DNA of 64,000 nucleotides from Haladaptatus sp. R4. Its GTDB lineage: Archaea > Halobacteriota > Halobacteria > Halobacteriales > Haladaptataceae. Below are positions 38,813-59,429 of this stretch, one piece after another; the first letter of the stretch is position 1; every line of letters starts with the position of its first letter. The position numbers and the translations under genes are program-made. The DNA is taken from NCBI RefSeq assembly GCF_001625445.1, contig NZ_LWHG01000028.1:372001-436000 (forward strand), in the 5' to 3' direction. The notes under the pieces are model-generated. The model was not told the DNA's origin, searched no databases, and worked only from the letters and a program-made list of their open reading frames with translations.

Positions 38813-39603
38813 ATGATGATTCCGCTGACTGACTCGCAAGTCACGCGAGACGGCAAAGCACTTATTCTCGCCCACGATCACGGCCTGGAACACGGGCCTC
38901 GGCCGACTTCGGTTCCGTTCCGGAGACGCTGGACCCCGAGAAGGTTTTCGAAACCGCAACCCACGACGCAGTTACGTGTCTCGCGGTTCAGAAAGGCCTC
39001 GCGGAGACGTACTACCCCTCCTACGAGGACGACGTCAACCTCCTCGCCAAACTCAACGGGACGAGCAACCTCTGGATGGGCGAACCGTACTCGCCACAGA
39101 ATTGGACGGTCGATTACGCCGCCGAACTCGGCGCGGACGCCGTCGGTTACACCGTCTACTCCGGGTCGAACAACGAGACGAGGATGTACGAGGACTTCCG
39201 CGACGTGCAGGAACGGGCACACCGCGAATACGACATGCCCGTCGTCATGTGGTCGTACCCGCGTGGACAGGGTCTCAAGAACGACACGAAAGAGAGCACC
39301 ATCGCCTACGCGACCCGAATCGCGCTCGAAATCGGCGCAGACATGGCGAAGGTCAAGTACCCCGGAAGCCGCAAGTCGATGGAATGGGCCGTCAAGTCCG
39401 CCGCCGACATGCCGGTCGTCATGAGCGGCGGGTCGAAGACCAGCGACTACGAGTTCCTCTCCAGCGTCGAAGCCGTGATGGACGCCGGTGGTTCCGGACT
39501 CGCCGTCGGTCGCAACGTCTGGCAGCGTGATGACCCCGAGCGAATCCTCGACGCACTCGAAAAGGTCATCTTCGACGGCGCGACCGCCGACGAAGCGCTC
39601 TAA
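38813..39603 (+). pseudogene. fba: Class I fructose-bisphosphate aldolase (archaeal DhnA type), frameshifted
   Basis: Begins MMIPLTDSQVTRDGKALILAHDHGLEHGP with a TATA box (cttatata) about 25 nt upstream. One base is missing at about 38898. The next frame continues with ADFGSVPETLDPEKV, KLNGTSN, VVMWSYPRGQGLKND, AKVKYPGS (Schiff-base lysine region) and MSGGSKTSDYEFL to the TAA at 39603. Rejoined length is about 264 residues, normal. It would convert fructose-1,6-bisphosphate to two triose phosphates. It is directly followed by fructose bisphosphatase. Loss in a live cell seems unlikely, which argues for a sequencing error. Confidence 0.85.
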
Positions 39604-40520: not shown

Positions 40521-42915
40521 TTAGCTGCTATTCGTCGGCGTCGTCCGTGGCCCGGTCGTCGTCGCAACGGTCGTCGGAGCAGCAGTCGCCGTCGGTCCGC
40601 CGACCGTCGTCCGTGCCGCAGTCGTTCCATTCGTGCCGCTCACCTGTCGGATACACCTCTGCACGTCGTTTTGCTGCACGGTCGCGACGTCTGGTTGTTC
40701 GAATCGAAGAACGTCGCGTTGACGAAGACGTATCCCGGAACGCCGAGGTTCGCCGTCGAGTTCGTCCACGTCACGTTGCCGTCGGCCGCCGGTTGGAAGT
40801 CCCCGGCGGAGATGTTCTGTGTCACCAGCACGCCCGACTGCGGGTTCGAGGCGTTGACCAACAACGCCTGCATTCGGTAGTCATCGGGTTGCGTCGCGTT
40901 CGCCGTGATCCGGGTGCAGGACAGGTTCGCCGATAGCGGTGCGGTCGGCGGTGCGGTCGTCGTTGTCGTGGTGGCGTTCGGTGTCGTAGTGACGTTCGGC
41001 GTCGTTGTCGGCGTCGCGGTGGCGTTCGGCGTGGTGGTCGTGGTAGCGTTCGCCGTCGTGGTTGGTGTCGTCGTGACGCTCGTGGTAGCGTTCGCCGTCG
41101 TGGACGGCGGTGCGGTCGTCGATGTCGTTGTCGGTGTCTGTGTCGACGTCGTCGCGGGTTGTGCCGATGTCGTGGTCGGCGTCGCTGTGGTCGACGTCGA
41201 AGTCGGCGACGGAGTCGCCGTCGCCTCGCCGCCCGCTCCCCGTTGTGCCACCGACTGGAGCGTTTTCGGCGGAGCGTTCGCCCCCGACTTCACTCGGTTT
41301 GCCGCCTGTTCGGTCCCCGAAACCGCCGTTTGCTGAATCTGGCCCGCGCTGTTCACGTTCCCTTGCGTGGCGGACTGCGTCGCACCGGCGGCCGCGCCGA
41401 AGGTAATCGCCTGAATCTGCGTGACCGAGGCTTTCTGCACCTGCGTGATTCCACCCACAGCGGCACCCTGCGCGCGGCTTGTATCTGCGTGACGTTCGCC
41501 TGCTGGCTCTGGGAAACCGCGCCGTTCGCCGCACCTCGCGTCGCTGCCTGCACCTGTGAGATGCTCGCCTGCTGGCGCTGACTCGCCACGACGCCGCCTT
41601 TGCACGCCCCTCTTGCGGCGGCTTGCACCTGCGTGACGCTCACCTGTTGGCTCTGGGTAATGGCCCCTGCCGCCGCCCCAGCACAGGCCGACTGAATCTG
41701 GGTGATTCGAACGGTCTGCACCTGCGTGACTCCGCCCTGTGCCGAACCCTTCGCGGCGGCCTGAATCTGTTTGACGTTCACGACCTGCTTCTGGACGGCA
41801 CCTTGGGTCGCACCTTGTGCCGCCCCCTGCGCGACGATTTGAATCTGCACGATGTTCACGACCTGCACCTGCGTGATGCTCAACGCCCCAACCGCCGCAC
41901 CGCGACAGGCCGACTGAATCTGTGAAACGGTGGCTCCCTGCGCCTGTGTGAGTCCACCCGTCGCCGCGCCTTGCGCGGCGACTTGTATCTGTGTGACGCT
42001 CACCCGCTGGACTTGTGAGACGGCCCCCGCCGCCGCACCGCGGCAGGCCGCTTGAATCTGTTCGACGTTCACCTGCTGAATCTGTGTCGCACCCCCTCTC
42101 GCCGCGCCCATCGCGGCGACTTGAACCTGCTTCGCGTTCGCGGTCTGTGCTTGTGCGGCCCCGGTCGCCGCGCCCTGTGCCGCCGCCTGCACCTGCTGGA
42201 CCGAAACGCTCTGACGCTGGTCGAGCGCGCCGAACGCCGCACCCTGTCCGGCCTCCTGAATCTGTGAGACGCTCGCTCCCTGATTCTGCACCGCACCGGT
42301 CGCCGCACCCTGTGCGGCACCCCGCGCCGCCACTTGTACCTGCGTGATTTTCACCCGTTGGCTTTGAGCGACTGCACCGTGGCACGCGCCGAACGCCGCG
42401 GCTTGTATCTGCGTGACGTTCGCCTGTTGAGTCTGGGAAACCGCGCCGGTCGTTGCCCCCTGTGTCGCTACCTGTATCTGGGTGACGTTCACGTCCTGAC
42501 TCTGGAGGAGTGCACCGTGTGCGGCACCGCGTGCCGCGGCCTGAACCTGTTCGACGCTCGCCGATTGATTTTGTGAGACAGCCTGCGTCGCCCCCTGTAC
42601 TGCGGCCTGTCGCTGTTCCTGACTGATGGAGACGCCTTGTCGCTGTGCCAACGCGGCCCCCTGTGTGGCACCGCGAGCGGCCGCCTGCTCACGGGTCGAA
42701 CGGTTCGAATCGGCCTGTAACAGTTCACTCCTTCCGTCGTTCACCGACAGTACGGGGAGCGTTGCCGCCGACTCCCCGACCGGGGGTGCCGACGCCTCCA
42801 TCGACTGGGTGGATGACGCCGTGCCGGAGTTGGTGGGAGAAACGACGGCGATGCTTGCGATGCTGACGAGGAAGACGAGTCCGACCGCGACTACTGCCCG
42901 TGTGAATCGGTCCAT
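40521..42915 (-). pseudogene. Large exported repeat protein: ~18 units of a 23-residue QIQ/glycine-zipper repeat, twice frameshifted
   Basis: Starts at 42915 with a signal or anchor helix (FTRAVVAVGLVFLVSIASIAVV). From about residue 75 there follow some 18 tandem units with the pattern QxAAxGAAxGAVxQxQxxxVxQI, usually 23 residues long, each with a GxxxG step and a Gln-alternating strand. A Thr/Pro/Asn-rich linker with many NAT sequons comes next, then a ~110-residue beta-rich domain with two cysteines (LSCTRI..., VQRCIRQV) and a Thr-rich tail. One base is missing at ~41472 and another at ~40691; rejoined length is about 797 residues. It is probably a cell-surface or matrix protein. I recognise no family. 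Confidence 0.75.
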
Positions 42916-43218: not shown

Positions 43219-43641
43219 ATGAGCAATGAGTCACCATACCGTGACGACTCGGGGAACCGCCCGTCGGGACATCCGCCCCACGTACTTCGTGCCGAACCAG
43301 GAGTGAGTAGACCGTCTTTCGACGACATCTTCGAACTCCTGTCGGACAAGCGGAGACGATACGCAATCCACTACCTTTCAACGACTGCGGATGGCGTAGC
43401 AACGCTGTCCGACCTCGTAGAACAGGTCGTCGAGTGGGAAACGGAAACGTCGCCCAACGACGTTCCGGACGATTACCGACGACGTATCGAAGCATCCCTT
43501 CATCACACACACCTCCCAAAACTCGCTGACGCGAACATCATCGATTACGATGCACGGAGCGAATCACTTCGGTACTGGGGGCAACCAGTGCTCGAAGAGT
43601 ACGCGGAGCACGTCGCGGCCATGGAACTGCCGGACCAGTAA
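43219..43641 (+). CDS. DUF7344-like winged-helix protein
   Basis: About 140 residues. After a disordered start, PSFDDIFELLSDKRRRYAIHYLSTTADGVATLSDLVEQV forms the first helices of a haloarchaeal winged helix (DUF7344-type, from memory). LHHTHLPKLADANIIDYDARSESLRYWG is the recognition helix and wing. It is probably a transcription regulator. The upstream GTG 43165 was rejected because of the TATA position. Confidence 0.75.
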   Translation: MSNESPYRDDSGNRPSGHPPHVLRAEPGVSRPSFDDIFELLSDKRRRYAIHYLSTTADGVATLSDLVEQVVEWETETSPNDVPDDYRRRIEASLHHTHLPKLADANIIDYDARSESLRYWGQPVLEEYAEHVAAMELPDQ

Positions 43642-43782
43642 CCACGTCTCGACCCCGCTCCGGTCGCCCTTCTCCCCTTAGACGATTCTTTCTCCACTCT
43701 CCCCCGTCTCCGCCCCTCGCTCGAAAATATTGTCGCGATAGAAAGGGAAAACGGTTTGAAATCCCTTCGCGCATTCTCATTC

Positions 43783-45485
43783 ATGAAAGTCCGTATCGGT
43801 GAAGGGGCGACCGACGAGGAAGCCTCGGCGATCGCCAGTGCACTCGCCGAGCACGTCGGCAGCGAGGTGGAAGTGTTCGTCGGTGACGAAACGGAACCGA
43901 CCGTCACCTGGGACGACCCCGGCGAACCGCTGGAGGACGACCTCGGACCGACCGAGCGCGAGGAACTGCTCTGGGAAGAGATCGAGGAGATCGAGTTGGG
44001 CGGTCCGGAGAAGTACAAGGAGCGCCTCTCCGAGAAGGGAAAGCTATTCGTTCGGGACCGACTCGACCTCTGGTTCGGTGAAGCGGGAATCAAGTTCGAG
44101 GACGGCCGGTTCGCCGAGTTCGACGCGGACGACCAACTGCCCGCCGACGGCCTGCTCACCGGCGCGGCCACGTTCGAGGACCGCGACCTGCACTTCATGG
44201 CGAACGACTTCACGGTCAAGGCCGGAAGCATGGCCGCCAAAGGAGTCGAGAAGTTCCTGCGCATGCAACAGCGGGCGCTTCAGAACGGGAAACCAGTCCT
44301 CTATCTGATGGACTCCTCGGGCGGGCGTATCGACCAGCAGTCCGGGTTCTTCGCCAACCGCGAAGGTATCGGGAAGTACTACTACAACCACTCGATGCTC
44401 TCGGGGCGTGTTCCACAGATCTGCGTGCTCTACGGGCCGTGTATCGCCGGTGCGGCGTACACCCCCGTCTTCGCCGATTTCACCATCATGGTCGAGAACA
44501 TGTCCGCGATGGCCATCGCCTCGCCGCGGATGGTACAGATGGTCACCGGGGAGGACATCAGCATGCAGGACCTCGGCGGCGCGCACATGCACGCGGCGGA
44601 ATCGGGAAGCGCGGACCTCGTCGCCCGCGACGAGGAACACGCCCGCGAACTCGTGGCGGACCTCATCACGTATCTCCCCGACAAGGCACACGAGAAACCG
44701 CCTCGAAGCGAACCGAAAGCGCCGAAACTGTCGCCGGACGGCATCGACGAGGTCATCCCGTCGAGTCCGAACCGGGCCTACGACATGACCGACCTCGTAG
44801 AGCGCGTGGTCGATTCGGATTCGTACTTCGAACTCAGGCCTGAGTTCGGCGGCGAAATCATCACGGCGTTCGCCAAAATCGACGGCCGTCCGGTCGGCAT
44901 CGTCGCCAACCAACCGGCACAGCGCTCGGGTGCCATCTTCCCGGACGCGCCGAGAAGGCGGCCGAATTCATCTGGAAGTGTGACGCCTTCGAGATTCCGC
45001 TCCTCTACCTCTGTGACACGCCGGGATTCATGGCCGGGTCCGGAGTCGAGAAGGACGCGATCCTGGAGAAAGGCAAGAAGATGATTTACGCCACCTCCTC
45101 GTCCACCGTCCCCAAAATCTCAGTCGTCGTCCGGAAGGCGTACGGTGCGGGAATCTACGCCATGTCCGGCCCCGCGTACGACCCCCAGAGCGTCATCGCG
45201 CTCCCGTCCGGCGAGATCGGCATCATGGGTCCCGAAGCGGCGATCAACGCGGTGTACGCGAACAAGTTGAACGACATCGAGGACCCGGAGGAACGCGCCC
45301 AGCGCGAGCAGGAACTCCGCGAGGAGTACCGCGAGGACATCGACGTGCACCGCATGGCGAGCGACATGGTCATCGACGACATCGTCCCGCCGAGTACCCT
45401 CCGCGAGGAACTCGTCCAGCGCTACGACTTCTACGCCGGTCTCGAAAAGGACCTCCCGGACAAGAAGCACGGGACAATCCTGTAA
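43783..45485 (+). pseudogene. Acyl-CoA carboxylase carboxyltransferase (PccB-like) with N-terminal extension, frameshifted
   Basis: The main domain carries the carboxyltransferase signatures GKLFVRDRLDLWF, LYLMDSSGGRIDQQSG, GPCIAGAAYTPVFADF and, in the second frame, VVRKAYGAGIYAMSG with IALPSGEIGIMGPEAAINAV. One base is missing at about 44948. Rejoined length is ~567 residues, against about 515 for usual PccB. The extra ~50 residues (MKVRIGEGATDEEASAIASALAEHVG...) look like the small epsilon/PccX-type subunit fused in front. It would carboxylate propionyl- or acetyl-CoA with a separate biotin subunit that is not in the window. Confidence 0.82.
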
Positions 45486-58796: not shown

Positions 58797-59429
58797 ATGA
58801 ATCGGAATCGTTCAATCGCAATCGTCCTCGTCATCTCCGTGCTCCTCGCTGGTTGTGCTGGTCTCGGTGGTTCGGATACGACGAGTTCGAGTACGGCGAC
58901 GACGACCGCGACCACGACGAGCGCCCCCACATCGACGAGTTCGAGCGCATCGACGACTACGGCGACGACTACGACCACCACGACCACCACGACGACGGAG
59001 GAAACCACGACGACTGAAGAGGCTTGGGAGCCGCCAAAAGCACCGAACACGCCGTTCCAACATAAGGAGGACCCCACCCGCTTGAAGAGCGTCAAACTCG
59101 TGGACAAGGTGAAAGCCAAGAGCGGTAACGGCTACTCCAACTTCAACGTCGAAGTCGTCGCCAACACGTCCATGAAGAACGTGGACCCGGAACCGCTCGT
59201 CGACGGTGACCCGTACTTCCTCGTCCAGATCAACGGCAAGAACGTCGGTCGGACGGGCGTCCGGTTCCAACACGACGAAGGGACTTACCCCGTCGAAATC
59301 GACGAGGGCGCGTTCGAGCAGTTCGACGACGGCACGCTCCACGTGACGGTGTACCTGCTCGACAAGGACCACGAGCACGACGACGTGTACGCCAAGTGGA
59401 CCGGCACCATCCAGTATAGCTCGAAGTAA
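58797..59429 (+). CDS. Secreted lipoprotein with Thr-rich linker
   Basis: About 210 residues. The lipoprotein signal MNRNRSIAIVLVISVLLAGC is followed by a ~55-residue Thr/Ser/Glu linker. A beta-rich domain then follows (VKLVDKVKAKSGNGYSNFNVEVVANTSM, YFLVQINGKNVGRTGVRF, HVTVYLLDKDHEHDDVYA), which resembles an Ig-like or FxLYD-type extracellular fold. Function is not known. Starts at 58764 or 58782 in frame are possible and would lengthen the N-region. Confidence 0.7.
   Translation: MNRNRSIAIVLVISVLLAGCAGLGGSDTTSSSTATTTATTTSAPTSTSSSASTTTATTTTTTTTTTTEETTTTEEAWEPPKAPNTPFQHKEDPTRLKSVKLVDKVKAKSGNGYSNFNVEVVANTSMKNVDPEPLVDGDPYFLVQINGKNVGRTGVRFQHDEGTYPVEIDEGAFEQFDDGTLHVTVYLLDKDHEHDDVYAKWTGTIQYSSK

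Follow-up and report, generated by a model that had tools for sequence, protein, structure and literature searches.

Among the closest described counterparts of the gene studied here are the curlin proteins (CsgA/CsgB, PF07012), which are likewise exported and consist of Q-rich repeats of about 23 residues with a Q-x-hydrophobic-x-hydrophobic-x-Q stretch. Curlin repeats measure 23 +/- 5 residues and are modelled by AF2 as beta-solenoids (PMC10192328), and in a survey only one archaeal protein was noted to carry curli-like repeats (PMC3521004). Here we describe a repeat-protein gene in a 64,000-nucleotide stretch of the Haladaptatus sp. R4 genome (the window), for which a previous sequence-only reading had proposed a surface fibre or adhesin, with a repeat period recalling that of curlin but a motif of its own.

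The gene runs on the minus strand from an ATG at 42915 to a stop at 40521-40523, in agreement with the coordinates 40521-42915 of that reading. It is interrupted by two frameshifts, one within the repeat array (41467-41476, minus) and the other within the C-terminal domain (40688-40694, minus). In all eight other genomes of the genus that we searched, the gene is intact, with open frames of 811-837 amino acids. The two frameshifts, together with the lack of a second copy in the window's genome, would suit a genuine recent pseudogene. We nevertheless consider this improbable, because an aldolase gene (38813-39600) and a carboxyltransferase gene (43738-45482), both less than 5 kb from the repeat-protein gene, are equally frame-broken in the window, although Haladaptatus sp. 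DYF46 carries both of them unbroken. The frameshifts thus most likely stem from errors of sequencing or assembly. The predicted product begins with a hydrophobic export signal of about 28 residues (42832-42915, minus), in which residues 2-19 form a helix in the AF2 model of an ortholog; the hydrophobic N-terminus fits the earlier proposal of an exported protein with repeats.

The repeat array (41333-42690, minus) spans the first frameshift and comprises about 17-20 units of 22-26 residues. From 331 strictly defined units we derived the consensus AAAxGAAxGALxQxQxVxVxQIQ, which retains the GxxxG steps noticed earlier. The 23-residue period is real: identity at lag 23 reached 0.32, far above the maximum of 0.206 obtained over all lags from 5 to 59 in 1000 shuffles. 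An intact ortholog contains 17 units by a strict anchor, with more degenerate copies at either end, close to the approximately 18 copies first counted. Between genera, repeats paired best by position in 1643 of 2709 comparisons, and mean identity was 58% for positional pairs versus 40% for other pairs. This position-by-position orthology indicates an array that is old and fixed in copy number rather than expanding, and it fits a fixed folded domain. Such constancy argues against an open-ended fibre repeat, although the protein might still assemble. An octad, QxQxVxVx, has been inserted recurrently, giving a spacing of 31 residues in 27 cases.

Relatives of the protein were found only among haloarchaea. 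A scan of contigs yielded 38 loci, all haloarchaeal (Haladaptatus, Halorussus, Natrialbaceae and others), and a sample of the class contained relatives in 109 of its 391 genomes, spread over 35 of the 86 genera. When the phylum was sampled, the 20 matching genomes all belonged to the same order, with none outside it, and no relative was encoded on viral contigs. Pfam searches with the array returned nothing even at E values up to 1, known helical-repeat families (TPR, HEAT, TALE and others) included, nor was there a match in NCBIfam, PHROGs or the PDB sequences, so that the motif does lie outside the known families, as had been suspected. One NCBIfam match, to CfxA (E 0.0025), fell far below the family cut-off and was dismissed as an effect of composition. 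Literature searches on this repeat, haloarchaeal curli and DUF7282 found nothing about the repeat. This is a real, conserved, exported and unannotated family of repeat proteins, present in more than a quarter of the sampled haloarchaeal genomes yet devoid of a Pfam or NCBIfam profile or a solved structure.

How the array folds was addressed mainly by structure prediction, which the sequence-only reading had advised for the rejoined protein and which we ran on an intact Haladaptatus ortholog. AF2 placed a single helix of about 17 residues in each repeat, confidently for the first half only: residues 69-320 mostly scored pLDDT of about 75-97 and residues 321-506 about 20, the five models ranging from 39.6 to 57.9. 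Five repeats of the window modelled with 48 in-register rows were also helical, at low confidence (pLDDT 42). Independently of AF2, the sequences themselves also point to helices. Position 18 is S, T, D or N in 87% of 383 units, versus 34-39% at positions 14, 16 and 20, as expected of a helix N-cap. When positions were counted back from the next unit, proline filled only one of the 5334 cells spanning positions 21-9, against 24 of 4919 elsewhere, but the corresponding p-value of 4e-7 overstates the case because 11 of those 24 prolines sit in one repeat and may reflect a single inherited event. Counting from unit starts alone gave no effect, a misleading outcome given units of 22 and 26 residues, and a tally based on regular-expression anchors was unusable because the anchors themselves ruled proline out at certain positions. 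Cap-like units that are in register with the repeats have the sequence V-S-P-Q-E-V-Q or D-P-A-Q, which also agrees with a helix. A Fourier test of helical periodicity was not significant for positions 1-12 or 19-12.

These results bear on the proposal that the protein is a curlin-like beta-solenoid or amyloid fibre protein. Its period of 23 residues matches that of curlin repeats, and the Q-x-V-x-V-x-Q stretch resembles the curlin N-x-Psi-x-Psi-x-Q kernel. In contrast to curlins, however, PF07012 matched neither the repeat gene nor anything else in the window's genome, and profile comparisons gave probabilities of 0.2% with Escherichia coli CsgA and 0.05% with a true haloarchaeal curlin-repeat protein. 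AF2, which models curlins as solenoids of strands, predicted helices for the array, confidently for residues 69-320 only, and the fixed copy number is likewise unlike that of curlins. Kinship with curlins thus appears very improbable, and the amyloid reading is not supported. A true curlin-repeat protein, exported, rich in Asp and 347 residues long, is encoded at L102:1420-2463 on the minus strand of genome G022, a haloarchaeon of the same taxonomic family; PF07012 matches 13 of its stretches (E 1.8e-47). No relative of the window's repeat gene was found in that genome.

The main rival is a mixed solenoid, in which each repeat would contribute a short strand (positions 13-21) to a parallel sheet as well as a helix (positions 1-12). 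The strictly alternating conserved and variable residues at positions 13-23 (p=0.003) are strand-like, the eight-residue insertions duplicate QxQxVxVx, and Haladaptatus paralogs carry NQNVNVNV in the same stretch, while their GAxx stretch varies in length by 4-5 residues, about one helical turn. Yet AF2 assigned no strand in either the ortholog or the five-repeat model, and the N-cap and proline patterns place the start of the helix at about position 19. We therefore regard the mixed solenoid as rather unlikely, and the original reading of the VTQIQ segment as a beta strand is not supported, even though the alternation at positions 13-23 is strand-like. The most likely reading, which we favour at about an even chance, is that the array forms short packed helices and not amyloid-like strands.

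If the array is helical, it departs from familiar helical-repeat (alpha-solenoid) proteins in having one helix per 23-residue unit, a Gly/Ala/Gln composition and no matching Pfam family. Foldseek retrieved no solved structure at E <= 0.001. The best VIA-align match was 8ugc, a designed FD15 flat helix-turn-helix-turn protein that resembles the array in its tandem helices (predicted in our case) with short turns; its Z of 10.7, with an rmsd of 8.7 over 252 residues, is too low to signify anything beyond the arrangement that helical repeats commonly share. The AmtB and terpene synthase rows of VIA-align were set aside as common helix arrangements.

Downstream of the array lies, as the first description had it, a Thr-rich linker (40943-41230, minus); it has 49 Thr in 96 residues. 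It is followed by a C-terminal domain of about 100 residues (40640-40942, minus; boundary approximate) and a Thr/Pro-rich tail extending to the stop (40521-40639, minus). The C-terminal domain has no Pfam match. The two Cys ascribed to it are conserved in the orthologs, and the third Cys in the window translation is an artefact of the second frameshift, where the translation is out of frame. A PDB search with this domain found no relative at E below 0.1. Relatives retain the array and exchange what comes after it: the unnamed two-Cys domain is the Haladaptatus type, DUF7282 follows the array in Halorussus and Natrialbaceae, and TSP3 repeats follow it in two loci (L095 and L098). The array's relatives thus include proteins with the C-terminal domains of haloarchaeal secreted DUF7282/TSP3 proteins, but the two-Cys domain of the Haladaptatus members does not align with DUF7282, and its identification as such was rejected. 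In the L095 protein, which comes from Halorarius halobius, nine TSP3 repeats and a CAP domain accompany the array.

Surface attachment is putative, since the tails of the Halorussus proteins matched no anchor motif and the Haladaptatus orthologs have no obvious C-terminal membrane segment. Five relatives examined for a C-terminal sorting tail (PGF-CTERM) had no NCBIfam match, and several end, by eye, in a hydrophobic stretch followed by Arg.

We propose, as a model with an even chance of being correct, that the gene encodes a secreted helical-repeat scaffold that displays interchangeable C-terminal domains. The product would be an exported structural protein whose 17-20 repeats fold after export into one array, each contributing a helix of about 17 residues (from about position 19 to 12), with short extended links (13-18) joining the helices. 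A small Ala/Gly face (A2, G5, A6, G9) may permit close packing of neighbouring helices, and the near-invariant Gln residues at positions 13, 15, 21 and 23 probably hydrogen-bond neighbouring repeats in a Gln ladder. The resulting stiff arm, continued by the Thr-rich, potentially glycosylated linker, would present the C-terminal domain at the cell surface, in a scaffold or adhesin role.

Haloarchaeal proteins are usually acidic, and the charge of the Haladaptatus array is unusual for a halophile. Haladaptatus arrays have a pI of 11.4-12.0 and contain 1-2.4% D+E, versus 14.5-19.2% in the neighbouring proteins; in DYF46, six neighbouring proteins have a pI of 4.3-4.7. Across the other genera measured, array pI ranged from 4.6 to 11.9, and every array was lower in D+E than its own C-terminal part. 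The basic Haladaptatus array might bind extracellular DNA, acidic glycans or an acidic S-layer as a kind of matrix glue, a function compatible with any of the proposed folds. This is a guess and a long shot, as the four Natrialbaceae arrays measured are mildly acidic (pI 4.6-5.7), so that basic charge is not a family-wide trait. An exported domain of pI near 12 nonetheless runs contrary to the usual haloarchaeal acidity, and the array probably has a repeat fold that is both new and stable in high salt. More tentatively, it may define a structural class of tandem repeats confined to haloarchaea, with a helix per 23 residues, Gly/Ala packing and a Gln ladder, strongly basic in Haladaptatus though exported into high salt; we find this broader claim possible but doubtful.

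The window locus is of the Haladaptatus type, in which the repeat gene lies between a gene that we take, by reading, to encode a fructose-bisphosphatase-like protein and a divergent DUF7344 gene (43219-43638, plus). The latter adjoins the repeat gene in five Haladaptatus loci, and a functional link is putative. In some 16-18 Natrialbaceae loci (L072-L100) the gene adjoins divergent genes that, by reading, presumably encode a biotin-type ECF transporter. Neighbours differ in other clades as well, with no partner gene conserved across genera, and this comparison of neighbours argues against a curli-type operon.

Haladaptatus genomes (G001, G002, G005, G006 and G008) also encode paralogs with the motif NQNVNVNVVQNAAxGAAxGA, homologous in the N-terminal part and the repeat plan (BLASTP E 1e-15), but with a spacing of 21 or 25-26 residues and Asn in place of Gln, Ser or Thr. 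They likewise have no Pfam match over the cut-off. Three of those at loci L103-L108 start with KRRTxLSGLIATVG, a twin-arginine-like signal. Elsewhere in the window, positions 58897-58996 hold an 18-base tandem repeat of 5.6 copies with 59% matches.
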